32,813 nucleotides of DNA from Chrysochromulina tobinii (Eukaryota; Haptophyta; Prymnesiales; Chrysochromulinaceae): NCBI GenBank assembly GCA_001275005.1, contig JWZX01001846.1:1-32813 (forward strand), read 5' to 3'. This document shows positions 2,081 through 27,610 of this stretch, one piece after another. Position 1 is the first letter of the stretch. Each line of letters begins with the position of its first letter. The position numbers and the translations under genes are program-made. The notes under the pieces are model-generated. The model worked only from the letters and a program-made list of their open reading frames with translations. It did not search any database and was not told where the DNA came from.

Positions 2081-4885
2081 CTAATCGCGCCATGGGATCA
2101 AGTCAACCGCCGCGTTCCAAGGCAGCAGTCCGGGGGAAGACGCGTCAGAGCGCGAGGGCGTGGACCCATACGGATCCGTGCGTGAGTACGTGCTTCCACC
2201 GCTGGCGATGCTCTGGCACGAGTACGGGCCACTGTGACAGCCACCATCCAGCACCGCAACCGCGCGATGACTGAGCGCGCGAGGATCGGTGAAGACTGCT
2301 ATCGTGCGCCCACCGGTGCTCGGCGAGCTGCGAGAGGCGGTGATGGAGCTTCCAAGCGCTTGTGTCTCGGATCCTCCGTCGAGCTCAGTTTGCAACCCAC
2401 GAAGCTGCCCACGTAGCGACGCTAGTTGGTCTTTCAAGTTCGCGGGTAGTACCCTCTGGCTTGCCATCCGTCGAAGACGATTGCTCTCTTCATCGGGCGG
2501 GCGTGAATCCCCAGAGGTATGGCTCACTACTCTAGGCTGCCGCCCCAGGGATTCGTTACGGGATTGAGCCCTGCGCCGTAGACGGTTCGTCTCATCGGAC
2601 GGGCAGCTCGGCGTGCTGGGAGCCAGAGCGGCCGCCCTCTCCTCAGCTGCCACAAGCACCGCCGCAGCCTCGGCCCGGGCGGCAGTCACAAGCACCGCCG
2701 CAGCCTCAGCCCGCGCGGCCCAAACCAACTCGTCCGCTTTGACCGCCTGCTTCGCCGCGGCCGCCCTCTCCTCAGCTGCCGCAAGCACCGCCGCAGCCTC
2801 GGCCCGGGCGGCACTCACCAACTCATCAGCCTCGGCCACCCGCTTTGCCGCCGCCGCCTCCAACTCTATCGCCTGTGCGACGGCGTGTTCCTCGATCGCC
2901 TGTGCGACCGCCTGTGCGACCGCCTTTGCCGCCTCCAGCTCAATCGCCTGTGCGACCGCCTTTGCCGCCTCCAGCTCAATCGCCTGTGCGACCGCCTTTG
3001 CCGCCTCCAGCTCAATCGCCTGTGCGCCCGCCTTTGCCTTCGCGGCCGCCGTGGCTTTGGCTGTCTCAACCTCAGCCGCCACCTCCGCCTCTGCCTGAAG
3101 CACAAGCTGCGCCGTCTGCACTGCCCTGGCCTCAGCCGCCTGCGCCTCGGCCATCGCCCTCGCCGCCCGTACCTCCGCCTCGGCCGCCTCGGCCGCCTCG
3201 GCCGCCACGGCGCTCTCGATCTCGCGCTCCATCTCGCGCTGCTCCGCCTCGGCGCTCGCAATCTCGCGCTCCATCTCGCGCTGCTCCGCCGCGGCGCTCG
3301 CAATCTCGCGCTCCATCTCGCGCTGCTCCGCCGCGGCCTCGTCGTCAAGCGCCACAAATCTCGCATGCATCTCCTCGATTAGGATCGATCTCGTCAGAAG
3401 CCGCACCTCCGACTCGACCGTCGACAGAAGTCTCTCCCGTTCTGCTTCCGCTGATCGTAACAGCGCTGCAGCCTCTGCCTCCGCTGAGCGTACCAGTAGC
3501 AGCGCTGAAGCCTCTATAGACTCCGCTGAGCGTAGCAGCGCTGCAGCAGCCGGCGTCACCTCCGCACCGTCGCCCACCGTCGGCGTAACCGTCGGCGCCC
3601 TACCGCTGCCGCCAACCAGCGGAGCTCGGGGATCGAACTGAGCTTCTTGATTGCTTCTTGAGTGCCACAGCTCCTGCGCCTTGAGCTCGGGGATCGAAAT
3701 GAGCTTCTTTTTCCCCTGGGAGCCCCCTTCGGGATCCATCTGGAGCTTGTCGAGCTTATCGACGAAGCTCGTTGACGAAGCGGGATCCCTCTGGAGCTTG
3801 TCGAGCACCTGCAGCTTCTCCTCGCACTTGCGCTTGATGGCGGCCTCCATGGTAAAGCGCCCATCCGGAGTAGGCCCATGCCTGAGCAGCTGCGTGTACT
3901 GGGTGCGAGCCTCTGCCCAATCTCCCGCCTCGAGATGCATGTTGGCGGCCGAGAGCAGATAGCTTGAGAGCTCCGTGGCGAGCGTCAAGGCGAGCGCCAT
4001 GTCCGCATCGCCGTCCCTGCTCATCTGTGCATACCTCGCCCGCTCGTAGATGGTCTCCACATGCAGAGCAATGTACGCGCCGGCCGCCGTGGCATACGCT
4101 TCGTCAAAGAGCCGCGCTGCCGCGGCAGCGTCTCCTCGCCTGCTCGCCACATGCCCCTGGGCTGCAAGCGCCGCCGCGAGCGCTCTGGCCGACTGGGACG
4201 CAAGGGACGGCGGCGCAGCAGCATCGCTCTCGGCCATCGTCCTCGTCTCCGGCGTCGCCGGCGTCGGCGAAATCGGCAGTGGCGTGAGGGTCGTGGCGTG
4301 GAATTCGCCGCTTGCGTGGCGGTGGCGGCGTGGCGGCGGCGGCGGCATCGGGGCCGTGTGGAACGCAGGGGACGGTGCAGCCTGCCCCGATGCAGAGGGG
4401 AAGGGCAGGGCGCCGTGGTGAGCACATGCATGCATGAACGCAGGGGACGGTGCAGCCTGCCCCGATGCAGCGATACACCGTGAAGGGGACGGTGCAGCAT
4501 CGGGCGACGTCGGCGTTGGCGTCAGCGTCTGCGTTAGTGTCGGCGTCAGCGTCGGCGTTGGCGTCGACGTCGGCGTGGTGATGCCGCGAGGCGGTGGCGG
4601 TGGTGCGGCGTGAAAGTGGCGATTCCGTGGCGGAGGCGACGGCATGACGGCGGCGGCCGACGGCAGCAAGCTGGCACCTTCATGCGTCACAGGCTCAGAA
4701 CGGAGCGTTAACTGACCCGAAGTGGTATGGTTTGCGGCTTGATTTTCGTAGCGCTCAATCGTTTTCGCGAGCGCTTCGTGCAGCGCCAGGCACCGGGCAA
4801 GGTGCTCACGGTCGTGCACATGCACATGTACCCACGGATTACAACGAACCGCCTTGGACTCGAGGAAGTAACGGAGCGATGACAT
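2081..4885 (-). CDS. TPR-like and long Ala/Glu-rich coiled-coil protein
   Basis: The frame runs from the ATG at 4885 to TAG at 2081 (934 residues unspliced, 909 if the element at 4382-4456 is spliced). Residues 1-50 are helical. A Thr/Pro-rich stretch with TPTLTPTLTQTLTP-type repeats follows to ~210. Residues ~230-340 look like TPR-type paired helices (for example ANMHLEAGDWAEARTQYTQL). Residues ~430-740 form a long coiled coil rich in A, E and R, built partly from 14-residue (EMEREIASAAAEQR) and 12-residue (AIELEAAKAVAQ) tandem repeats. The tail has two NRLRR motifs and is Ser-rich. I do not recognise the family; a structural or cytoskeletal role is only suggested by composition. The gene resembles the coiled-coil gene at 23931-26183 in composition and also carries a type-A intron. 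The true 5' end could lie upstream (see 5012-5242). Confidence 0.7.
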   Translation of the reverse strand: MSSLRYFLESKAVRCNPWVHVHVHDREHLARCLALHEALAKTIERYENQAANHTTSGQLTLRSEPVTHEGASLLPSAAAVMPSPPPRNRHFHAAPPPPPRGITTPTSTPTPTLTPTLTQTLTPTPTSPDAAPSPSRCIAASGQAAPSPAFMHACAHHGALPFPSASGQAAPSPAFHTAPMPPPPPRRHRHASGEFHATTLTPLPISPTPATPETRTMAESDAAAPPSLASQSARALAAALAAQGHVASRRGDAAAAARLFDEAYATAAGAYIALHVETIYERARYAQMSRDGDADMALALTLATELSSYLLSAANMHLEAGDWAEARTQYTQLLRHGPTPDGRFTMEAAIKRKCEEKLQVLDKLQRDPASSTSFVDKLDKLQMDPEGGSQGKKKLISIPELKAQELWHSRSNQEAQFDPRAPLVGGSGRAPTVTPTVGDGAEVTPAAAALLRSAESIEASALLLVRSAEAEAAALLRSAEAERERLLSTVESEVRLLTRSILIEEMHARFVALDDEAAAEQREMEREIASAAAEQREMEREIASAEAEQREMEREIESAVAAEAAEAAEAEVRAARAMAEAQAAEARAVQTAQLVLQAEAEVAAEVETAKATAAAKAKAGAQAIELEAAKAVAQAIELEAAKAVAQAIELEAAKAVAQAVAQAIEEHAVAQAIELEAAAAKRVAEADELVSAARAEAAAVLAAAEERAAAAKQAVKADELVWAARAEAAAVLVTAARAEAAAVLVAAEERAAALAPSTPSCPSDETNRLRRRAQSRNESLGRQPRVVSHTSGDSRPPDEESNRLRRMASQRVLPANLKDQLASLRGQLRGLQTELDGGSETQALGSSITASRSSPSTGGRTIAVFTDPRALSHRAVAVLDGGCHSGPYSCQSIASGGSTYSRTDPYGSTPSRSDASSPGLLPWNAAVDLIPWRD
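2893..3045 (-). repeat. 36-bp coding minisatellite
   Basis: Units GCCTCCAGCTCAATCGCC begin at 2931, 2967 and 3003 (period 36), with more diverged units on the left. They encode AIELEAAKAVAQ in the coiled coil. Confidence 0.85.
3212..3337 (-). repeat. 42-bp coding minisatellite
   Basis: Three units begin at 3212, 3254 and 3296 (period 42), encoding EMEREIASAAAEQR-like units in the coiled coil. Confidence 0.85.
4382..4456 (-). mobile_element. Introner-like intron, type A (copy 1, diverged)
   Basis: Direct host copies at 4361-4395 and 4436-4470 (35 bp, identical, offset 75) flank a 40-bp core at 4396-4435. In the sense direction the core contains GCATGCATGTGCTCACC and then a pyrimidine tract, but its 3' end is CCTCTG, not CCACAG. 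The best intron is GC-AG, CAG|GCTGCACC to GGGGCAG|GCTGCACC. At 75 bp it keeps the frame, so unspliced RNA would add 25 residues. Confidence 0.65.
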
Positions 4886-7074: not shown

Positions 7075-8468
7075 CTAATCTCTCATCTCTTCTCCTGACG
7101 AGATCAGCAAACGGAGCAGCGCCGCGAGATGGCCCGCGTCCCTCAGGTCTTTGGCGAGCGAGTGGCCCAGCCCCGCGTGCACGCGCACCGAGACGGTCGG
7201 CTGGCGTCTGCCTCTCTGCCCCAGGCCTTGGGCCGTGCACTCCAAGAATCGCTCCGAGGCCATCGCCATGGCCTCGCGCAGCAGACTCGCCTCGAGCACG
7301 TCAGAGGGTGCGTCCTCGCCGACATGCACCTCGATCACAGGCTGGATCACGGGCTGGGTGGGGGGCGTCAGCAGAGAGCAACGTCGGTGCCAGCACGCAA
7401 AGGCAGACTCGGTCGGCACGCCCGCCTCACGCGCCTCCGCCTGAAGCTCTGCGAGTGGATCATCGAAGAACATGTACGGCAAGGCCAGCGCCGCGCGATG
7501 GGTGGGGTGTACGAAGATCTGCGGACCAAATGCGAGGATGCCAGCTGCACCAACGGCAAGGCCCGCGCGGACGGCAGCATAGCCTCCCATCGATGCTCCT
7601 ACGGTGAGCACCCGCACAGGCTGCAGCAGGGCGATCTCGGCCTCCAGATGCGACAGTAGAGAGTCGAAAGCGTCGGTAGTCTCGGGCTGCTGGACTGTGG
7701 GCGTACATGCGCGCAAGCCAGCTCGCATGCACACTTGCGTGCACGCTGCCCAGGCAGCGAGTGGAGTGCCTCGGGTCTTGCCTCGCAGGTACCACCGCTG
7801 TAGGGGATCTGATCGACGCCAACAGCAAAGACAACAGGTGGCGCTAATGGTTGAGAAGGAGAGGCCGAAGTGGAGTGGTCGGGCGGGACAGGTCGTAGTG
7901 GTTCAGGGTCTCGTCCGGACAGGCGTCAGGAGCAGCTGGCATCGGCAAACACACCTCGCACGAAGAGTGCCGACGCGCCGATGCGCTCGCAGACACCCAC
8001 AAATTCGTACATGCCGACATGCCCCATTCCGTACGCAAGTCCGCCGAAGCTGATGATTAGCGTGCGCTCCTCGCCCAGGCTGGTGGGACCGAGACTACCT
8101 GTCCCGTCGTAGCCTGAGTAGACGCGCCTGAAGTCGTGCGCGTCGAATGCGCGTGTGGCGAGATTTCGGACTTTTTCCGCGTCTGGTGCGTGTGCATGTG
8201 CGCGTGGGTCGGGCAGCATGTCTTCTCGCAACAGGTCGAGCAGTCCGAGCCTTCGACGCAGCTCCTTGACTGAAAGAGTGGCCTCGAGCTCGCCGAGCAT
8301 GGTGACAGGAGGGCGCGTGCCGTCGAAGCCGGCTGCCCGAAAGTATGCCTCGAGATCGACTCCGTCGTCGCTGGTGCTCATTTCAATCGCCTTCACTGCG
8401 CGAGAATTGCAGTCGTTGTCCTCTGAGATATTCTGAGTGCGCCATCGAAATGGACTCGTGTGAACCAT
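7075..8468 (-). CDS. Alpha/beta-hydrolase fold protein (two exons)
   Basis: Exon 1 is 8468-7955 and exon 2 is 7808-7075. The intron 7809-7954 starts GTGTGT and ends GATCAG. Joining gives 415 residues and rebuilds the phrase FVRDPLQRWYLRG across the junction, which supports the splice choice. Exon 1 has LIISFGGLAYGMG (oxyanion-side strand). Exon 2 has the nucleophile elbow VGASMGGYAA (Ser at ~residue 240) and a late HAGLGHSLAKDL that could carry the catalytic His; HVGEDAPSD may carry the acid. The family is serine hydrolases of the alpha/beta fold, but the substrate cannot be told. A start at the Met at 8381 (MSTSDDG) is also possible. The gene is divergent from the phosphoglycerate mutase gene. 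Its intron carries neither of the introner-like families. Confidence 0.75.
7809..7954 (-). other. Ordinary GT-AG intron of the hydrolase gene
   Basis: 146 bp; donor CGAG|GTGTGT, acceptor GATCAG|ATCCCC, phase 1. It has no flanking duplication and no repeat family. The nearer CCTACAG acceptor would put exon 2 out of frame. Confidence 0.7.
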
Positions 8469-18145: not shown

Positions 18146-21100
18146 CTATTGATTGACCCCTTTAAGCACAGGCTCTGATGCCGGCGTGGTGGCCGTCGCG
18201 AGCGCCGCTGTCGCCAGCCGCGCCGCCTGGCGGAGCATCGTCACGATGGCCTCCGGGCGGCCGACGCCCGCCTCGAGCGCCACCTTGCGATCAGCCGCCT
18301 CGCGCAGCAGCACGTCGCAGCTCTCCCTGGCGACCAGATGCCAGACCGTCGTCGACGCCGTCTGGCCGATTCGGGCGACGCGCGCGGCCGCTTGCTCCTC
18401 GAGGAGCGCCGAGTTGAGCACGTCGACGAACACGACGTGCTGTGCGCACGTGAGCGTCAGGCCGGCAGCGCTCTGGCCTGCATCCAGGAGCATCACACGG
18501 CATCGGGCGTCGTCAGATAAGTCATCGGGCGTCATCAGAAGTCATCAGAAGTCATCACACCTGCATCCAGGAGCATCACACGGCATCGGGCGTCGTCAGA
18601 TAAGTCATCGGGCGTCATCAGAAGTCATCAGAAGTCATCACACCTGCATCCAGGAGCATCACACGGCATCGGGCGTCCGTCCGAAAGGTATCGACGGGCT
18701 CGGCGAGGGTGGCGCCCGCGACGGCGCCCGCGACGGCGCCTGCCGCCGCGCTCGCCTTCTTCCACTCGGGGCGCCACCACGAGTCCTCCTTGAGTGAGAT
18801 GGTGCCGATGGCTGCGCGCTGTAGCACGTGGCCGATGAGCGGGAGCGCGTCGGGGAAGCGTGTGAACACGACCGCCTTCTCGGCGGGAGGGAGCTCGTCG
18901 CGCAGCAGCCGAACGAGCGCACGCAGCTTGCTGCTGCCGGCTTCGAGCCCAGGCCATTCACACCTCGCACTCGCCTTCACAGCCTCGAGCCCAGGCCATT
19001 CACAGCTCGCATCGTGAGAGGAGCTCGCGCCGTCTTGGGCGTGCTCGGCGCCGTACTGGGCGTGCTCTGCCTCGGCCAGCGCACGCACCTGTGGGGAAGT
19101 GAGAACGTCGTAGTGAGCACATGCATGCCGGGCGGGGGCAGGTGGCTCAGCGCACACACGCGGTCGAGGCGTCGTGGTGAGCACATGCATGCTGGGGCGG
19201 GGGCAGGTGGCCCAGCGCACACACCCGGTCGAAGCGTCGCTTGGTAGCGTCCGTGTGCGCCGCGAGTCGTCGACGCGACTCCTCATTCCGCTGCTCGCGC
19301 TCGTGCGCGTCGCGGGCGAGCGCGGCGCGCTTCTCGGCACCTGTGGGGAAGTGAGAGCGTCGTGGTGAGCACATGCATGCTGGGCGGGAGCGCATCGCGG
19401 GCGAGCGCGGCGTGCTTCTCGGCACCGATCGTGCGAAGATGCCGACGGAGCTCTGCCGGTGCGCAGCTCAGCGCCATCCACGGCGGTGCGGCGCGCCGCC
19501 CGAGGCGAGCTCGCTCCTGCGCCGCACGTAGCCACCCGAGGATGAGCTGCTGGTCGGCGGCGGCGCTCGCGACGGCGCTCTCTCGAAGGCTGTCAGGTAC
19601 CCTCTCGCCGAGCAGGTGGAAGACGAGGCGGGAAGGGAGCGGTGCCTCCCATCCCGACCACTCTCGAGATTGCATCTCGGCGAGGCTGTGCGGCCCGAGG
19701 AGCTTCTCGGCTGCCTCGCGCACGGCCTGTCAATAGTCGGCCACGCCTTGCGTCTCAGAGGCAATCAAAGGCAATCAGATGGGATCAGAGGCAATCAGAG
19801 GCTATCAGAGGCAATCGGAGGCAATCAGAGGCAATCAGAGGCAATCAGATGGGATCAGAGGCAATCAGAGGCCATTAAAGGCCATCAGAGGTCATCCGCG
19901 CGCCTGCTTCTCCCGGTACAGGTCGCTCAGCACGGCGCCCAGCGCGTACAAGAAGCGTGTCGCGCGCCCGCCCGACGGGTTCGCAAGGATGCGGATCGCC
20001 ACGTCATCCACCCGCCACATCTCCGAGATGCCCTGCTTGTACTTCGTCAGCTCCTCGTCTGTCAGTCGCTCCTGATGAGGGAGGTCATCAGAGGTCATCA
20101 GCATCCATCAGGTGCAATCAGGGGGACCATCAGGGGACCATCAGGGGGACCATCAGAGGCCATCAGAGGTCGGGTCTCCCCCTCCCGCCATCAGAGGCCA
20201 TCAGCGGCCATCAGAGGCCATCAGAGGCCATCAGAGGTCGGGTCTCCCCCTCCCGCCAGACGCCAGATCGAACCAGATCGAACCTCGGTCATTCGAGACG
20301 AGAGCCCTGATGAGGGAGGCAATCAATTACGCCATCAGACGCAATCAGAACGAACCTTGGTCATTCGAAACGAGAGTAGCGGCGCCACGTCAGCCCAGCG
20401 CGTGCGCTCGCTCAACGGCTCCAACGGCTGCCCGCAGTACGACCACGCATCCCAGCAGGGGAGGCCGTCGTCGTCGTCGTCGTCGTCTCGCTCGCTGCTG
20501 CTGCTGAGTCGAGAGCTGGCGCCGCCCGTGGTGCCCACCACGGCGCCACCCGCGGTGCCCACCACAGCGCCACCCACAGCGCCACTCGTGGTGTCCACTA
20601 CGGCGCCACCCACGGTGCCCACCACAGCGCCACTCGTGGTGCCCACCACAGCACCACTCGTGGTGCCCACCACAGCACCACTCGTGGTGCCCACCACAGC
20701 ACCACTCGTGGTGCCCACCACAGCGTCCGGATCCCACAGCCGCAAAAAGTGCGTCAGGATGCGCCGTACGCCATCCGAATTATCCGTCGACGTCGCCCAC
20801 TCGGCCCACTCGCTCCGCCAGCCCGAGCTCGCGGCGCCAACGGCCGGCTGCGGGCTCGGCTCGGGGCAGAGGGTGAGGTGGCGGAGCACCTGTGGGGAAG
20901 TGGGAGCGTCGTGGTGAGCACGTGCATGCTGGGCGGGGGCAGAGGGCGAGGTGGCGGAGTACCACATCGATGGCGCGATTCGTCAGGGCTCGTCTGGCCT
21001 CGATGGCCGCGTCCACGTGTGCCGTGCTGCCAAGCTCGATCGCCCGCCGTCCCCCCCACGCCCGTTCGAGGGCGGGCGGCGAGACTGGCTGCGTAGCTCC

Positions 21101-23550
21101 ATCTGCCGAGCTCGAGAGCACGATGGGAGCTCCGATCTCGGAGATGGGAGGTACGATCTCGGAGATGGGAGGTCCGATCTCGGAGATGGGAGCTCGTATC
21201 TCGGAGATGGGATCTCGGATCTCGGAGATGGGAGGTCCGATCTCGGAGATGGGAGCTCGGATCTCGGAGATGGGAGCTCGGATCTGGGAGCTCGAGAGCA
21301 CGATGGGAGGTCCGTAGTAGCCGCGCTGCCCGACGAATGCAAGCGCCACCAGCTGCTGGAGCACGACGAGATCCGCCAGCTGCAGCTCGCCCAGCGCGAA
21401 TGCATGCGTCTCGACCAGGGTGCGCAACCGACCGGCCTCCTTCTCCGCCTCCCAGCGTGCCGCGGAGAGCATCGCGGGCCAGAGCGGCGCGCTGCCCGCG
21501 CCCTGCCACACCTGAGACAAGAAATGGACAACATATGCCACGGCTCTCTCAGAAAAGTCATCAGAGGTCATCAGAGGTCATCAGAAGTCATCAGAGGTCA
21601 TCAGAGGTCGTCAGAGGTCATCACACCTGGGGCAGCCTATGTAACGGCTCCTCATACCCGTCATCAGAAGTCATCAGAAGTCATCAGAGGTCATCAGAGG
21701 TCATCACACCTGGGGCAGCCTATGTAACGGCTCCTCATACCCACGCCGGCAGCGCTCAAGGGCCTTGCCCGGCCGGTCGTCGGTCAGCGCGCCTACCAGC
21801 TCAGCAGGCATGCCTTTGGAGGCGGAGGAGTCGACGCGCCCGATACAGCGCCCTCGAGCCGTCGACGCGCCCGATACAGCGCCCGAGCCCCCCTGGCTGC
21901 CGCCGCCAGTACCGCCGCCGCCAGCGCTCTTGCCACCGTGCTGACTCTCGGCGGCACGCTTCGACTTCAAGCCCCACGATGCCCAGAGGCTCGGCGCGAG
22001 GAGCGAGCGCTGCACCTGTGGGGAGAGGGGAGCGGGCGCCATCGTGAGCACGTGCATGCAGATGCCCAGAGGCTCGGCGCGAGGAGCGAGCGCTGCACCG
22101 AGTCGATCAGGATCATCTGGCGCTCACGGCCGTAGCCTACCACAACGTCGGCCGTGCACGCGTCAGCGGCCGCGTGCCCATCTTCACAGGCCGCGTGCAC
22201 ATCTTCACAGGCCGCGTGCCCATCTTCACAGCCCGCGTCTTCGGCCGACCCCAGCGCCGTCCCCTGCGCCGTCCCCTGCGCATGGCGCAGCGCGGCGGGC
22301 AGCACGAAGTCCGCATGGAGGACCTTTTCGGCCATCGTGAGGTCGAACTCGAATCTTCGCACGCGCTGTGGAGGGATTCGTAACCGGAGCTTCGCCTTGG
22401 TACGACGCAGGAAGATGGGGCGGAGCGTCGCGCGGAGGGTGTCGAGTGCGCTCACGTCGCCGCGCTGCCACGCTGAGGCTGCCGCGTGCCAGGTGCTTGC
22501 GAGAGGCCCGCGCTCGCCTGCCATCGGGTGCACTCGGGAACCATCAGAGGCCATGTGAGGATCATCAGGTGCCAGCAGATGCCATCAGGGGCCATCAGGG
22601 GCCATCAGGTGCAATCAGGTGCAATCAGGTGTCATCAGGTGCCATCAGGTGCCCTCAGGTGAAATCAGGTGCCATCAGAGGGTCGTGCTCGCCACGGCGC
22701 TTGCCTCCTTCGAGGAAGTGGAGAAGTTGGAAGAGGTCGCCCAGCCGCTCGTGCTCCATCGGCGTGCCTGTGGGGAAGTGAGAGCGTCGTGGTGAGCACA
22801 TACATGCTGTTGGACGAGGTCGCCCAGCCGCTCGTGCTCCATCGGCGTGCCTGACACCGTCCAGCGATGCGTCGCTGCCACGAGGCGCACCGTCTTGCCG
22901 GCCGCGTACGAGCCAGGCGCCTTCTGCACCTCGTCGAGGATCACGCGCCAAAAGTGCAGGTACTTGAGCGGCGACGGGCGCGTATCGTCGTCCGTCGCGC
23001 GCACACGCAGGTTGAGGCTGCTGCGCTTCTCCTTGACACTCTCGAAGCTTTGCTGGAGCGGTCGCAGCTCGCGCATCAGCACGTCGTAGCTGGCGAGCAC
23101 GACGTCCGCGCCGGCGAGGCGGGCCACCTCGGCCATCACAGCCTCGTGCGTCGCCCCTTCGGGCCGGCCGCGGAAGTGCACGAGGCGCAGCGCAGGCGCG
23201 TGGAGGCGCAGCTCGCGCGCCCACTGCTGCTCGATGGCCGCCGTGCATGCGATGAGTGTGCTGCCGCACGGGAGGACGAGCCCCTGGGGGGCAAGGCTGC
23301 ATTCGGCCGGCCGCCACGAGTTCGCCGCCACGAGCGCCGCACACATGACCGTCTTGCCCACGCCCTGCTCGTCTGCGAGGATCCCGCCCTTGAGCGCACC
23401 CGCGCGCTCACAATCGAGCATGAAGGTCAAGGCTTGGCGCTGGAAGTCGAAGAGCGTGCTCGCGATGGCTGCGGGTTGCGGCGCCTCGGCGAGATCAGCA
23501 CCCACGTTGAGCGCGTCTAAGAAATCGGTCGGTAGTTTGGGCATGGACAT
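18146..23550 (-). CDS. SNF2-family ATPase/helicase, SHPRH-like (11 exons)
   Basis: Exons: 23550-22851, 22767-22705, 22517-22099, 22015-21710, 21511-20963, 20889-20356, 20071-19904, 19726-19426, 19340-19225, 19088-18644, 18477-18146. They total 3,933 bp, one frame of 1,310 residues. Motifs in order: ILADEQGVGKT (I), ILDEVQ (II), RWTVSGTPMEHERLGDL (III), LRPIFLRRTKAKL, then KAVVFTRFPDALPLIGHVL (IV), RCRVMLLDAGQSAAGLTL (V) and QAAARVARIGQT (VI). Motifs III and V are restored only across introns. DEVQ and the motif III-VI spacing recall SHPRH, a replication-stress ubiquitin ligase, but no RING or PHD cysteine cluster is visible. Low-complexity insertions (AVVGTTSG and PISEIRA repeats) lie in exons 5-6. 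All ten introns are of the two introner-like families, and at least three (22768-22850, 22518-22704, 19727-19903) use GC donors. Confidence 0.82.
18478..18643 (-). repeat. Intron 10 of the SNF2 gene: exact 83-bp tandem repeat containing exon ends
   Basis: The 83-bp unit is repeated exactly from 18478 and 18561, with a third partial copy from 18644 that is the true exon end. Every unit holds a copy of the exon end CTCCTGGATGCAG plus donor GTGTGATGAC. The rightmost copy acts as donor (CAG|GTGTGA), and the leftmost copied exon end acts as acceptor (GGATGCAG|GCCAGAG). The intron is thus 2 x 83 bp. Confidence 0.85.
18944..19013 (-). repeat. 42-bp in-frame duplication in exon 10
   Basis: CGAGCCCAGGCCATTCACA occurs at 18944 and 18986 (offset 42). 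The product repeats CEWPGLEA. No core element is present, so it is probably coding, although GAG|GTGTGAATGG inside it resembles a donor. Confidence 0.7.
19089..19224 (-). mobile_element. Introner-like intron, type A (double, intron 9 of the SNF2 gene)
   Basis: 136 bp; donor GACCGG|GTGTGTGCG, acceptor CCCCACAG|GTGCGTGCG. It contains two cores (sense GCATGCATGTGCTCAC at about 19190-19175 and 19127-19112), separated by a 65-bp tandem copy of the host-derived part. Only the second core has the full CTTCCCCACAG end. Confidence 0.8.
19341..19425 (-). mobile_element. Introner-like intron, type A (intron 8 of the SNF2 gene)
   Basis: Host copies at 19305-19341 and 19390-19426 (37 bp, two differences, offset 85) flank the element with AGCATGCATGTGCTCACC and CTCTCACTTCCCCACAG. 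Donor ATCG|GTGCCG, acceptor CCACAG|GTGCCG. Confidence 0.88.
19727..19903 (-). repeat. Type-B minisatellite intron (intron 7 of the SNF2 gene)
   Basis: 177 bp, mostly 10-bp units (plus strand GCAATCAGAG; sense CTCTGATTGC). GC donor AAGCAG|GCGCGC, acceptor TTGACAG|GCCGTGCG. Splicing gives REKQ|AVREAAEKLLG. Confidence 0.75.
20072..20355 (-). repeat. Type-B minisatellite intron (intron 6 of the SNF2 gene)
   Basis: 284 bp; donor ACCAAG|GTTCGTTCTG, acceptor CCCTCATCAG|GAGCGAC. It contains CTGATGGCCT units and a copied exon end plus donor (CGAATGACCRAGGTTCG at two sites 72 bp apart, near 20281 and 20353). The GTCGGGTCTCCCCCTCCCGCC block is also duplicated within it, near 20168 and 20237. Confidence 0.75.
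20527..20727 (-). repeat. 24-bp coding minisatellite in exon 6
   Basis: Units of GTGGTGCCCACCACAGC-type, 24 bp each, encode AVVGTTSG repeats. The frame stays open, so it is treated as coding. Confidence 0.8.
20890..20962 (-). mobile_element. Introner-like intron, type A (intron 5 of the SNF2 gene)
   Basis: Host copies at 20863-20890 and 20936-20963 (28 bp, three differences, offset 73) flank the element. Donor GTG|GTACTCC, acceptor CCCCACAG|GTGCTCC. Sense core AGCATGCACGTGCTCACC. Confidence 0.88.
21113..21316 (-). repeat. 21-bp minisatellite flanked by a host duplication, in exon 5
   Basis: About eight 21-bp units (GATCTCGGAGATGGGAG-type) encode PISEIRA/PISEIGP. The array is bounded by direct copies of CTCGAGAGCACGATGGGA at 21112 and 21290, encoding PIVLSSS on both sides. 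No GT or GC donor fits the borders, so I treat it as translated. Confidence 0.7.
21512..21709 (-). repeat. Type-B minisatellite intron (intron 4 of the SNF2 gene)
   Basis: 198 bp; donor CCCCAG|GTGTGATGACC, acceptor TTGTCTCAG|GTGTGGCAG. The interior is CTGATGACCT units plus a full copy of the 33-bp exon end with its donor. The copy is at about 21619-21651 and the exon itself at about 21710-21742. Splicing gives HRLPQ|VWQGAGS. Confidence 0.8.
22016..22098 (-). mobile_element. Introner-like intron, type A (intron 3 of the SNF2 gene), perfect duplication
   Basis: Host copies at 21978-22016 and 22061-22099 are identical over 39 bp (offset 83). The core between them reads TGCATGCACGTGCTCAC and ends CTCTCCCCACAG. 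Donor TCG|GTGCAG, acceptor CCACAG|GTGCAG. Confidence 0.9.
22518..22704 (-). repeat. Type-B minisatellite intron (intron 2 of the SNF2 gene)
   Basis: 187 bp of 10-bp units (plus strand GCCATCAGGT / GCAATCAGGT). GC donor GGAG|GCAAGC, acceptor GATGGCAG|GCGAGC. Splicing gives LLHFLEG|GERGPLASTW. Confidence 0.7.
22768..22850 (-). mobile_element. Introner-like intron, type A (intron 1 of the SNF2 gene), GC donor
   Basis: Host copies at 22726-22770 and 22809-22853 (45 bp, two differences, offset 83). Donor TCAG|GCACGCC, acceptor CCCCACAG|GCACGCC. It interrupts motif III (SG|TPM), which splicing restores. Confidence 0.88.
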
Positions 23551-23930
23551 GGCGCGTCGAGTGTGTGAACGTTAACACGACAGACGCGACAACCGGTGCT
23601 ACCGGTACGGCACTGTTTTTCGAAACAACACCGACACCGACCGCGGTGTGACCTGTGGGGAACATAGGAATTCCAAATCGACAACGCCTATCGTAAGGAA
23701 TTCCTACCGAGTACCGTAAACCGTAGGTACCACGACCACCCCCACATGCCCTCAGGGTCAGGCTCAGTCGCCCTCACCCAACAATTTGCGCCTGCACCAC
23801 GTCCTGCTCGGCCGCGTTCGCGGCAAGAGCCGCCCAACGACACGAGGAATTGCAAATCTTGATTACTTGATATGGCAAATAATCTCTCGTCAAGTTATGA
23901 GTCAAGAGTCAAGAGCTGTTGATCTACTGG
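23551..23930. other. Intergenic, upstream of the SNF2 gene
   Basis: No gene is seen. The sense-strand TTCCCCACAG|GT at about 23650-23660 equals the 3' end of the type-A element without its core. It could be a leader-intron acceptor or a remnant. Several ACCGGTAC and TACCGTA repeats lie at 23590-23730. Confidence 0.4.
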
Positions 23931-26183
23931 TCAAGCTGCAGGAGGCGGCCCTCGAAAGCCAGCTCGAGAGCCTGCAGTGCCGGTCCGACGTGGCAGATTG
24001 TGCCACATGATGCCCTGCTCCGTCACTGAGGGCACAAGCACCTCGCCGGCCCGGAGCTCGCGATTTGGCGAAGTCGAGCCCGGCAGCGCAGGCCACTTGA
24101 TCTGCGCCGCCGCCGCGCTCGCGGCGGCTCTCGCGGCGGCGCTCGTGGCGGAGAGGTACGGAGAGCCCAAGGCATACGCCGCCTGTGGGGAAAAGGCGCC
24201 GAGGTGAGCACTTGCATGCTGCCCTTGAGAGCCCAAGGCATACGCCGCCTCCACCCGCCGTTCGCGTGCGTCGCCGACGCCGTGTAGGTCACTGTGTAGG
24301 TGCATGTGTACTAGGCTGCCCGAGGACTTGGGGCGTGTGGCTTGGCGCAGCATGCGCAGCTCTACGTGCGATGAGGAAGGGCGTCCGGCGCTCGTGGCAG
24401 CGCTCGAGCGACGCACAGGGAGGGCGGCCGCCTCCATCGGCAGGGCGGTCGCGTCGGACACATTGTTCTCCTGGGAAGCGCCCTGATGGTGATCAGGGCC
24501 CTGAAATTTCGCCGCGAGCAACGGACGCACTCGTGCCTGGCACTGCGGCCACTGAGGCCGTTGGCTATCTTGATACGCGATCTCGTACGCACGGCGTGCC
24601 TCGCGGGTGGCAGCCTCCGCCGTCGCAGCTCGTCGTAGCGCCGTGAACGAGTGCACCTCGGCCTCCGTGAGGGACTTGCGAAGGACGCTGATGGTCGCGC
24701 GCAGTTCTGATTGGAACGCCATGTAGACCAGGACAGGGGTCAGACCAGTGCCGCCTGCGCCGCCTGCGCTGCCGGCGCCGCCTGCGCCGCCGGACGCACT
24801 GCCTGCTGCAAGTTCGCGCGCGGCCGCTTGGATCGCGAGGTTCTGCTCGTGAACCAGCTGCTCGCGCGCGGCGGCCACCGCCTGCGTTACCGCCACCTCC
24901 TGCGCTCGTGCCGCCTGTTCGGCTGCCTCCGTGGCCTGCGCCTGCAGCAGCGCGCTCTTGGCACCTACCATCCACTTGGAAGAGAGCGCCGCCTGCATCG
25001 CAATCGCTGCCACCGCGCTCTCGACCGCGGCCTTCTTATCGAGCGCAGCCACCTCTTGCTCAATGGCGACCGCCTTTGCGACGGCCGCCTCCTGCTCCAC
25101 TGCCGCCTGCCACCGATGATCCTCGATTGCCTTCACGTGCTCCGCTTCCAAGGCGACGTGGGCCGCCTCCGCCGCCGCCTTCGTCTCCGCCACTTCGGCC
25201 ATCGCCGCCACCTTTGTCGCCTCCAACTCCGCCGCCGCTGTCGCCTCAACAGCTGAAAGCCGCTCCGCCGCTGTCGCCTCAACAGCCGATAGCCGCTCCG
25301 CCGCCACTGCTGCAGCGACGCGTTTCTCTTCCTCGGCGCACGCCATGGCCTCTTCGAGTGCCCTAGCGGCCTCCGCTTTGGTCGCCTCGAGCTCGGCGGC
25401 GGCAACCGCCATCGCTGCAGCCTTTTGCGCTGCCGCCTCCTCCATCGCCGCCTCGAGGTTGGCTGCCGCGATCGCCATGGCCGCGGCCATCTGCGCGGCG
25501 GCCTCCTCGGCTGCCTCCTCGGCTGCAGCCTCCAGCGCGGCTTCCAAAGCGAGGGCTGCCTCTTCGCGTGTAGCGGAAACCGCCTGCGTCACCGCCGCCT
25601 CCTGCGCCTTCAGCGCTGCCTCAGCCGCTTCCGCTGCCTCCTCAGCGAAACGTGATTCGCGCGCTGCTGCCGTCCACGTGTTGGCCAGCTTTGCGCGCGC
25701 GACCATCGCGGCGACGGCGGCGCTGACAGCAGCATGCTGCTCTGCTTTATGCTTGACTGCCTTCACGATACCAACCGTGTTCGAGCGACTCCGCTCTTTG
25801 ACCCGCGTGGTGCTCACGGCTGCCTCCACCGCTGCCCTCTGCTCGCTCGCAGCCTTTTCGCTCGCCGCGGCGAGCGCTGCGGCCGCTGCGGCGAGCGCTG
25901 AAGCCATCGCCTGCTCGTGCGCAGCTTGCGCCTCCGCAGCCGTTGCACTTGCGGCAGCGAGCATGTCGGCCACCGCCCGTTCATGCGCAGCTTGTGCCTT
26001 GGCCCGTTGCGCCGCTGCCTCAGCATCCTTAGCCATGACTACTGCGGCAACCTCTCGGTCGATGGCGGAATGCGCAGCCCTTGCGCCTTCTGTACGAGCC
26101 TCATCGACGGCGATCGCCACAGCATCTGCAACGGCCGCCTCTGCGACCGACGCTTTGACGTAGCCTTGCGTTCGGACGTCCAT
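23931..26183 (-). CDS. Ala-rich long coiled-coil protein
   Basis: The frame runs from the ATG at 26183 to TGA at 23931: 750 residues unspliced, 728 if the type-A intron at 24183-24248 is removed. Residues ~10-460 are an almost unbroken Ala/Glu coiled coil with repeated AVTQAVSATREE-, RLSAVEATAAE- and AAAMAIAAANLEA-type units. After a Gly/Ala hinge (GGAGGAGSAGGAGG), a second helical region has MAFQSELRATISVLRKSLTE with AEVHSFTALRRAATAEAATR. The tail is Ser/Pro-rich (TRPKSSGSLVHMHL; EQGIMWHNLPRRTG). The family is not recognised; a filament-like or scaffolding role is only inferred. An E2F-like TTTTTGGCGGAAAA lies 72 bp upstream of the ATG. Confidence 0.7.
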   Translation of the reverse strand: MDVRTQGYVKASVAEAAVADAVAIAVDEARTEGARAAHSAIDREVAAVVMAKDAEAAAQRAKAQAAHERAVADMLAAASATAAEAQAAHEQAMASALAAAAAALAAASEKAASEQRAAVEAAVSTTRVKERSRSNTVGIVKAVKHKAEQHAAVSAAVAAMVARAKLANTWTAAARESRFAEEAAEAAEAALKAQEAAVTQAVSATREEAALALEAALEAAAEEAAEEAAAQMAAAMAIAAANLEAAMEEAAAQKAAAMAVAAAELEATKAEAARALEEAMACAEEEKRVAAAVAAERLSAVEATAAERLSAVEATAAAELEATKVAAMAEVAETKAAAEAAHVALEAEHVKAIEDHRWQAAVEQEAAVAKAVAIEQEVAALDKKAAVESAVAAIAMQAALSSKWMVGAKSALLQAQATEAAEQAARAQEVAVTQAVAAAREQLVHEQNLAIQAAARELAAGSASGGAGGAGSAGGAGGTGLTPVLVYMAFQSELRATISVLRKSLTEAEVHSFTALRRAATAEAATREARRAYEIAYQDSQRPQWPQCQARVRPLLAAKFQGPDHHQGASQENNVSDATALPMEAAALPVRRSSAATSAGRPSSSHVELRMLRQATRPKSSGSLVHMHLHSDLHGVGDARERRVEAAYALGSQGQHASAHLGAFSPQAAYALGSPYLSATSAAARAAASAAAAQIKWPALPGSTSPNRELRAGEVLVPSVTEQGIMWHNLPRRTGTAGSRAGFRGPPPAA
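24183..24248 (-). mobile_element. Introner-like intron, type A (coiled-coil gene), GC donor
   Basis: Host copies at 24161-24184 and 24227-24250 (24 bp, identical, offset 66) flank the core AGCATGCAAGTGCTCACC with its TTTTCCCCACAG end. Donor GGAG|GCGGCG, acceptor CCACAG|GCGGCG. At 66 bp it is frame-neutral, and without splicing it adds 22 residues and repeats AAYALGS. Confidence 0.85.
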
Positions 26184-26437
26184 GCAACGCAGAAGCCCTG
26201 AGTGTAGTTGGCGGTGCGCTTGCGGTGGTGCTCCGCAAGAGGTTGGCGAGCTTCTTTTTGGCGGAAAAGAGGCGCGGTCTCGAATTCTGAAACAGCACCT
26301 TGGCTATTTCCTTGGAGGAAACGGCTGTCTGTGCATGCAAAGCGACATGAGTCATCTCCCTCCCTCCTAAGAATCGAAACGTTGTTTACATTCTCCGTCT
26401 ATCGTGATTCATGCGAATTGAATTCTCAACTTTATGA
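26184..26437. promoter_or_regulatory. Upstream region of the coiled-coil gene with E2F-like site
   Basis: 254 bp separate the LRR gene stop from the coiled-coil ATG. TTTTTGGCGGAAAA at 26255-26268 is close to the E2F consensus TTTSGCGGGAAA but lacks one G. No other signal is seen. Confidence 0.35.
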
Positions 26438-27610
26438 TCACGTCGCGACCCCAAGCCCAACCCGAGGAGGCCCCCGGCGCCGCTTGTTGCCGCCGCGTCC
26501 TCCACCTCGCCTGCGCCCCTGCATGGCCATCGTGGAGAGCCCTCGGGTTCGATTGCCGCCCACCCCGTGGCAGACCAGAGACGGCCTGCACGGCGCTGGC
26601 AGCACCTCCGGCAGCGGACAGGCGAAGAGGTTGGTGTCGTCCCGTGCACGATCGACAGGACGCAAGCTGTGGAGTGGCTGGAGTGGCCCTTGAGAGTTCG
26701 TGAGGACGCACCTGTGGGGAAAGGAGAAGGCGCCGTGGTGAGCACTTGCATGCTGCCCTTGAGAGTTCGTGAGGACGCACCGGCTGAGCCGCAGGCCGGA
26801 CATGCCGGTAGGGAGGGTGCCACTGAGCCGGTTGCCATGGATCTCGAGCTGGCGCAGCGCGTGCCAGCCGCCAATGCTCCTCGGCAGTGTGCCCGACAGC
26901 CGTGTACCGACCAGCCACAAGGCTCGCAACTGGTGGAGCTCGCCGATCTCGGAGGGGATGGTGCCGGAGAGGCGCGTGGCCGCAAAGGAGACGTGCTGGA
27001 GCGCCGACGCACGGCCGAGCTCCGTCGGTAGCGTGCCACTCAAATGCTTGCAGCTATGCGTAAACATGCTCCGTGCACTGCCCAGCCAACCGAGCTCCGT
27101 GGGCAGCGTGCCCGACAGAAAAACGTGGTCGAGCTGTAGCCGCTGGAGATGACCCAGAGCGCCAACCTCGGGGCTCAAGGTACCCGAGAGCCTCGTGCCA
27201 GCCACATCGAGCTCACGCAGTGAGGCCCAGGCGTCCAATGAGTGCGGCACCGTGCCTGAGAGCGCCGCGTTGCTGGCGAGCAGCAGCGTCTCCATTTGAG
27301 CGAGCGACAGCAGCACTGCCGGCAGGGTGCCCGAGAGCCTGCTCGCGTCGATGTTCAGCGTCTTGATCTCGGAGAGCTGGGCGAGATGGCGTGGCAAGGT
27401 GCCGCTCACACGATTGTCGCCGAGGTCAATGCCCACCACTGTCGTATGGCTGCTGCGGTCGCACTCGATCCCGTGCCATCGGCACACGTTGCCGCTCAGC
27501 CAGCGAGTACTTGCACGCCACTTTGCGCCGTGCGCAGATGCGTATAGCTGCTCGAGCGCCTCCCGAGCCGTCGACGTGCCGAGGGTGCCTGCTGCGACGA
27601 CGGGGAACAT
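26438..27610 (-). CDS. Leucine-rich-repeat protein, plant-type
   Basis: The frame runs from the ATG at 27610 to TGA at 26438: 390 residues unspliced, 367 with the type-A intron at 26712-26780 removed. The N-terminal cap ALEQLYASAHGAKW, then W-x-C-RWHGIEC, is the LRRNT pattern of plant receptor LRRs. Nine ~24-residue repeats follow with the plant-type LSGTLP/LSGTIP signature (IDLGDNRVSGTLP, LNIDASRLSGTLP, and so on). The end CPLPEVLPAPC may close the cap. No kinase domain or clear membrane anchor follows; the tail is Arg/Gly-rich (QGRRRGGGRGGNKRRR). The N-terminus MFPVVAAGTLG is at best a weak signal peptide. It probably acts as a recognition or binding module (inference). Confidence 0.78.
   Translation of the reverse strand: MFPVVAAGTLGTSTAREALEQLYASAHGAKWRASTRWLSGNVCRWHGIECDRSSHTTVVGIDLGDNRVSGTLPRHLAQLSEIKTLNIDASRLSGTLPAVLLSLAQMETLLLASNAALSGTVPHSLDAWASLRELDVAGTRLSGTLSPEVGALGHLQRLQLDHVFLSGTLPTELGWLGSARSMFTHSCKHLSGTLPTELGRASALQHVSFAATRLSGTIPSEIGELHQLRALWLVGTRLSGTLPRSIGGWHALRQLEIHGNRLSGTLPTGMSGLRLSRCVLTNSQGQHASAHHGAFSFPHRCVLTNSQGPLQPLHSLRPVDRARDDTNLFACPLPEVLPAPCRPSLVCHGVGGNRTRGLSTMAMQGRRRGGGRGGNKRRRGPPRVGLGVAT
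26712..26780 (-). mobile_element. Introner-like intron, type A (LRR gene)
   Basis: Host copies at 26686-26712 and 26755-26781 (27 bp, identical, offset 69) flank the core AGCATGCAAGTGCTCACC with its CTCCTTTCCCCACAG end. Donor AGCCG|GTGCGTCC, acceptor CCACAG|GTGCGTCC. It is frame-neutral (23 residues if retained, repeating CVLTNSQG). Confidence 0.88.

Follow-up and report, generated by a model that had tools for sequence, protein, structure and literature searches.

Short recurrent elements between long host-exon duplications as candidate new introns in Chrysochromulina tobinii

The window analyzed here is contig JWZX01001846.1 of Chrysochromulina tobinii (assembly GCA_001275005.1) over its full 32,813 bp, one of the 2253 contigs of the 53.15-Mb genome that was searched. 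It contains an SNF2-family gene and, within and beyond that gene, copies of a short recurrent sequence that we call the A-type element, the core of which (GCATGCANGTGCTCACCACGGCGC) is 24–25 bp long with sharp bounds and usually precedes a pyrimidine tract and CCCCACAG. The analysis itself placed the host probably among the haptophytes, from one named protein, of Prymnesium sp. MAG, with 70% identity across 34% of the query region; a search with an 18S pattern gave no match. A preliminary description of this DNA had placed nine such cores in the window, all in one direction, and had noted long direct copies of host exon beside them except at a doubled intron. Both points were borne out: the nine cores lie on the minus strand (0.23 expected; nine was reached in 0 of 100 shuffles), and the flanking repeats measure 24–45 bp, with a 14-bp match retained at the doubled intron. 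The host gene and the A-type features are listed below.

18146..23550, minus strand: SNF2-family host gene, 10 introns modelled, 1314 aa when spliced
19089..19224, minus strand: doubled A-type intron, 136 bp; cores 19176–19192 and 19112–19128; 14-bp match only
19341..19425, minus strand: A-type intron, 85 bp; intron copy 19390–19425, exon copy 19305–19340, core 19364–19380; repeat 37 bp, diverged
20890..20962, minus strand: A-type intron, 73 bp; intron copy 20936–20962, exon copy 20863–20889, core 20913–20929; repeat 28 bp, diverged
22016..22098, minus strand: A-type intron, 83 bp; intron copy 22061–22098, exon copy 21978–22015, core 22043–22059; repeat 39 bp
22768..22850, minus strand: A-type intron, 83 bp, GC-AG; intron copy 22809–22850, exon copy 22726–22767, core 22791–22807; repeat 44–45 bp
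24183..24248, minus strand: A-type intron, 66 bp, GC-AG; intron copy 24227–24248, exon copy 24161–24182, core 24203–24219; repeat 24 bp
26712..26780, minus strand: A-type intron, 69 bp; intron copy 26755–26780, exon copy 26686–26711 (identical), core 26737–26753; repeat 27 bp
4361..4470, minus strand: A core (4417–4433) between 35-bp direct repeats, lacking CCCCACAG; 75 bp (25 codons) inserted

The limits of the introns at 24183..24248 and 26712..26780 were read off the sequence. In the SNF2 gene, removal of the ten modelled introns, five of them A-type, leaves a frame that is open across all ten joins (1314 codons). The predicted product matches the Pfam domain SNF2-rel_dom at 2.8e-32, along with PDB structures and eight homologues, and the Pfam and PDB matches continue across two of the joins (residues 233 and 258). 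The eight homologues all lack inserted sequence at two of the A-type joins (residues 233 and 398), the later joins being less well aligned, and the motif SGTPMEHERLGDLFQLL, within which the intron at 22768..22850 lies, is uninterrupted in all eight.

The preliminary description had counted eight introns sharing core and acceptor and had put a G|GT or G|GC donor where the duplicated exon copy begins. The donor is indeed GC at 22768 and 24183. The copy at 4382 differs from the description: it lacks CCCCACAG, its repeat starts with neither GT nor GC, and repeat plus element (75 bp) lie within a 954-aa minus-strand open frame. This copy may be translated and never have been an intron, or may be spliced via a GC..AG pair inside the repeat. 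A similar arrangement occurs elsewhere, near position 1500 of locus L013 on the minus strand, where a core stands between 31-bp repeats (60 bp in total), the frame reads through (...SLSIEAIEAIQHACAHHGTRSLSIEAIEAI...) and a possible GC..AG pair again lies inside the repeat; this insertion is perhaps retained as protein, and neither it nor the 4382 copy may ever have turned into an intron.

Across the genome, the core was found with at most two mismatches at 2058 places (995 and 1063 per strand) compared with 16 for the reversed pattern, and the combination of core and acceptor that the preliminary description had proposed searching for (CCCCACAG 2–28 bases downstream of GTGCTCACCACGRCGC) at 559 places compared with 0 for the control; these counts may include some places twice, as the contig pairs L003/L011 and L052/L058 share identical 3-kb stretches through assembly redundancy. 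Details were taken from the window and 50 loci around exact core matches (302 kb), a non-random sample that holds 194 distinct cores. In a profile of 193 cores, conservation is abrupt from GCATGC to GGCGC(C), with position 8 variable and only weak C-richness just 5′ of GCATGC. On the 3′ side there follows a pyrimidine tract (median 9 nt, 87% pyrimidine in 127 copies) and then CC(C)CACAG, tract and acceptor being much more variable than the core. Neighboring A-type elements and the decamer-bearing B-type elements described below, when less than 1.5 kb apart, lie on the same strand in 123 of 126 pairs, which is the expectation if sense copies alone survive in genes.

The exon duplications were examined in the same sample. 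Comparison of the sequence after the acceptor with that before the core gave a local repeat for 117 of the 141 copies that have an acceptor and for 14 of 141 when the partners were swapped. Under a stricter test, the exon copy was anchored exactly at the donor in 43 of 82 single acceptor-bearing copies (36 GT, 7 GC), compared with a mean of 0.1 and a maximum of 1 in 50 reshuffles; in some of the 43, for example L039 7101, the acceptor may itself fall within the repeat. By both tests, the intron carries at one end a direct repeat of the exon end that adjoins its other end, as in intron gain at staggered breaks. Another 32 of 110 single copies have the repeat in a different register, often through indels. 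The duplications of A-type copies have a median length of 25 bp (5th–95th percentile 17–45, with a detector floor of 16) and consist of local sequence that is for the most part coding. Repeat pairs were identical in 18 of 46 cases and the mismatch was 4.6% per site, values by which the pairs appear recent. A negative correlation between repeat length and the 5′ gap was left unused, being partly built in: mutation of a repeat shortens the one and lengthens the other.

Fifty-six clean single insertions define the anatomy of the short form. Their duplications measure 25.6 ± 7.9 bp, the introns are 62–161 bp long (median 78.5), and the donor, which is GT in 47, GC in 7, and GG in 2, lies at least 24 nt 5′ of the core. 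The 24–58 nt between donor and core are host copy in 54 of the 56. A G precedes the donor in 86%, followed by GT(A/G)CG. In the main class, the downstream copy opens with a donor-like G(T/C) directly after CACAG, so that the exon is restored exactly when one copy and the element are taken out. The element itself, at ∼42 bp compared with 62 bp for the shortest of these introns, is too short to form an intron alone; such a small insert becomes usable through the long duplication.

In the preliminary description, splicing takes out exactly one host copy plus the element. Tests outside the window agree with the SNF2 gene that such removal restores the coding sequence. With a codon model trained on the SNF2 gene alone, the frame was kept after exact removal in 37/50, 33/49, and 33/49 insertions for flanks of 60, 75, and 90 nt, respectively, where one third is expected; the corresponding figures were 23/31, 26/35, and 28/41 with a confidence filter and 35/56, 31/55, and 32/55 in a first version of the test. 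Intron lengths showed no bias to multiples of three (18, 16, and 22 of 56 by remainder modulo 3). For ten fragments hand-picked out of the 50 available, a Pfam match ran across the join in six (calpain, filamin, PP2C, ion channel, gelsolin, and, at the cut-off, meckelin), one match ended at the join, and three fragments had no match. The structure alignments of the PP2C and calpain fragments are gap-free at the join, the PP2C query having five extra residues that lie three residues before it. Splicing of the elements, their mobility, and the empty sites that they would have entered are inferred.

Two further claims, that the element has no donor of its own and that it always brings the acceptor, hold for the short form and the main class, respectively, and are not supported as a general rule. 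A longer form, with the core extended upstream by TGATTGCCACTGATGACCTGCCTT, occurs at 189 genome places and mostly opens with its own donor GTACGY (138 places; control 0). In 20 long-form copies, AG|GY falls at the end of the repeat in 5, in the middle in 5, and at the start in 3, with 7 left without assignment; where it is at the end (L047, L056, L039, L054, L052), the donor is the element's own and the acceptor comes from the exon copy. Some cores that have no acceptor themselves also stand between AG|GY-containing repeats (L044, L045, L047 5091, L017), and in a minority both splice sites could come from the duplicated segment, interior AG|GY matches being not far above control. What is new here is that the hand can be reversed, the duplication supplying the acceptor in some long-form copies.

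Composite arrangements were seen as well. Tandem arrays at L008 1770–2080, L036 5237–5480, and L031 3103–3270 repeat whole units (exon copy plus element) two to four times, each unit opening with a donor and closing with an acceptor, such that every choice of sites gives the same mRNA. At L034 419–551, A-type cores with ∼25-bp repeats and no acceptor lie on the strand opposite to their neighbors, probably nested antisense within a composite intron.

A second class of filler, the B type, consists of decamers such as CTGATGACCT, found at 7490 genome places compared with 1 for the control; the introns that hold them often lie between direct repeats. Three are in the SNF2 gene.

18478..18643, minus strand: B-type (decamer) intron pair of opposite hand; filler opens with GTGTGA as donor; acceptor from the duplicated upstream exon (∼34 bp, end GATGCAG)
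20072..20355, minus strand: B-type decamer intron holding a diverged copy of the upstream exon end (CTCTCGTTTCGAATGACCAAGGTTCG)
21512..21709, minus strand: B-type decamer intron holding a copy of the upstream exon end, terminating TGCCCCAGGTG

The join of the first falls in the helicase motif CRVMLLDA|GQSAAGLTLT. The same gene has exonic minisatellites at 20518–20750 and 21107–21300, coding for VVGTTSGA and ISEIRAP-like repeats, and a further decamer filler (of the CCTGACGAAC type) stands between host direct repeats at L031 1607–1750 and L059 4400–4450. With duplicates removed, median repeat lengths were 25 bp for the A type (61 pairs), 27 for the B type (73), and 25.5 for B-type introns with fillers of at least 70 bp (28); Kolmogorov–Smirnov tests on the A and B repeat lengths gave p values of 0.24 and 0.64. 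An exact splice solution was found for 53 of 70 A-type pairs in the sense orientation compared with 32 of 70 in antisense.

Any explanation has to provide an insertion that duplicates ∼17–45 bp, a recurrent insert sequence, and survival mainly where the insert is exactly spliceable. We give an even chance to the proposal that intron fragments are inserted at widely staggered breaks that are filled in, and that selection keeps an insertion when its duplication provides the splice site it lacks; the fill-in mechanism suggested in the preliminary description is consistent with the data. A double-strand break with a stagger of ∼20–45 bp would open an exon, a short stretch copied from an intron (the core and whatever adjoins it) would be placed in the gap, and filling in of both overhangs would duplicate the exon segment. 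Selection would then retain exactly spliceable insertions in which the duplication gives the splice site or sites that the fragment lacks: the donor for 3′-half fragments, the acceptor for 5′-half fragments, and perhaps both where it spans AG|GY. Wide-stagger fill-in with intron-derived filler would account for the variable ends, the two hands, and the acceptor-less copies. The broader version, in which any short fragment of an intron, of either hand, that contains a branch region could be completed by a 20–45-bp exon duplication, is put forward tentatively. Our confidence in both versions is held down by the antisense and unclassified controls, which weaken the case for a general process.

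Those controls and several other observations weigh against fill-in at staggered breaks, in its narrower or its broader form. For the B type, exact splice solutions were as frequent in sense (44/101) as in antisense (43/101), with 21.5 for a shifted control, and unclassified pairs also have a median repeat of 26 bp with the detector floor at 16, so we do not claim that all decamer introns arise by insertion and duplication; the detector may partly set the equality of A and B lengths, and the case for generality beyond the A family is weak. A detectable repeat is absent in 35 of 110 single A-type copies. The near-constant junction CACAG|GY of the main class could reflect target preference rather than selection. 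The sharp start (GCATGC) and end (GGCGC) of the core are not demanded by splicing and are left unexplained by wide-stagger fill-in; in this respect the core looks more like a defined element than like random fragments. Two tests for source flanks carried along with the insert were negative: L005 and L010 each have additional 5′ sequence that is found nowhere else in the genome, which fill-in likewise leaves unexplained. Neither an empty site nor an active source was found: the SNF2 exon has itself as its single genome match, the gene being single-copy, and the overlapping identical contigs (L003 with L011, L052 with L058) show no second-haplotype difference.

The sharp core bounds and the high copy number, together with the strong junction consensus, would agree with a dedicated mobile element, whose integrase or transposase would insert the 24-bp core by a wide staggered cut with a preference for G|GT(A/G)CG, the spliceosome using the duplicated site as donor. 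No terminal inverted repeats were seen by eye, however, GCATGCA... and ...CCCCACAG being non-complementary (such repeats are not obligatory for introners), the acceptor-less copies mean that the 3′ end is not fixed, the repeats vary in length, and the long form is of the opposite hand; no successful search for such an enzyme was made. We regard this explanation as possible but rather unlikely. Retroposition, in which an RNA ending in the CACAG of an intron would be reverse transcribed onto a nicked exon by target priming, would give ragged 5′ ends and variable duplications, and agrees with the variable repeat lengths, the ragged sequence just 5′ of GCATGC, and the 5′-extended subfamily. It is nonetheless improbable: a constant 3′ end with variable 5′ truncation, the mark of non-LTR (long terminal repeat) elements, is not seen, as some copies wholly lack the 3′ end, and 5′-half copies would require priming at the other end. 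That the introns are older and a neighboring exon piece was copied in later by slippage, gene conversion, or minisatellite turnover is very improbable, for although tandem arrays of repeat plus element exist and the minisatellite-like decamer introns point to frequent local copying, the exon after an A-type intron opens with a full donor-like motif, as expected of a once-continuous exon and not of an ordinary exon start, the introns are near minimal length, and in 43 of 82 copies the splice junction is precisely where the repeat begins.

Viral spread was rejected, the core being present in one IMG/VR contig only (3300027760_000958), at its very end, with no match to the decamer patterns in that database. 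The core copy (L059 4495–4518) ends a 4.5-kb contig that is otherwise phage- or bacteria-like in its genes, and the contig is probably chimeric, or else DNA of the same host that was misbinned. Two prokaryote contigs that match the core pattern inside ordinary-looking sequence were taken as chance.

Among known systems, introners likewise form dispersed families of similar introns, as the A-type introns do at many unrelated positions, and there too the donor may come from the target-site duplication with the element carrying the acceptor (PMC9860276, Fig. 2B legend). The duplications of characterized introner families are 3–9 bp, often with terminal inverted repeats (duplications in 49/130 families, inverted repeats in 72/177; PMC9860276), in contrast to a median of 25 bp here, with a core of 24–25 bp and no inverted repeats seen by eye, and the preliminary description was right that the host duplications are far longer. 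Unlike in introners, host exon makes up nearly half of the intron, and the similarity among short-form copies does not reach near both splice sites; the survey in PMC9860276, which demanded similarity there, would, we infer, miss the short form. In Daphnia, inserts bordered by a repeat of the neighboring exon end were explained by staggered-break fill-in (33 repeats of 4–12 bp; PMC4202315), whereas here the repeats are longer and the insert is recurrent, a recurrent family being absent from the Daphnia account. Tandem duplication of AGGT-containing segments also draws its splice sites from two copies of an exon segment (PMC3443670), but here the two copies are separated by a filler that includes a branch region, and the acceptor of the main class comes with the element. 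The introner elements of Amoebophrya are invading introns with direct repeats at their borders; unlike here, these repeats are 3–5 nt, with inverted repeats of 8–20 nt and non-canonical splice sites (PMC7789003). Direct repeats near introns of all kinds are given as 4–30 bp (mean 11.4, similarity 71–100%; PMC11782384), and introners have been reported in mirusviruses too (PMC12768974). A recurrent intron element with duplications this long was not found in the open-license literature, of which coverage was partial.

The bulk origin of introns is an old problem. In the case described here, an insert below the size of a functional intron is completed by the host exon, duplicated over ∼25 bp. If this is correct, repeats of such length would greatly raise the chance of exact intron gain per insertion over that with duplications of 3–9 bp, and surveys for whole-intron similarity would overlook introns of this class. 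If the general process holds, intron birth would need neither transposon ends nor a splice-site pair in the insert. With thousands of recent copies in one genome, both the mechanism and the selection on its products are open to test in C. tobinii.

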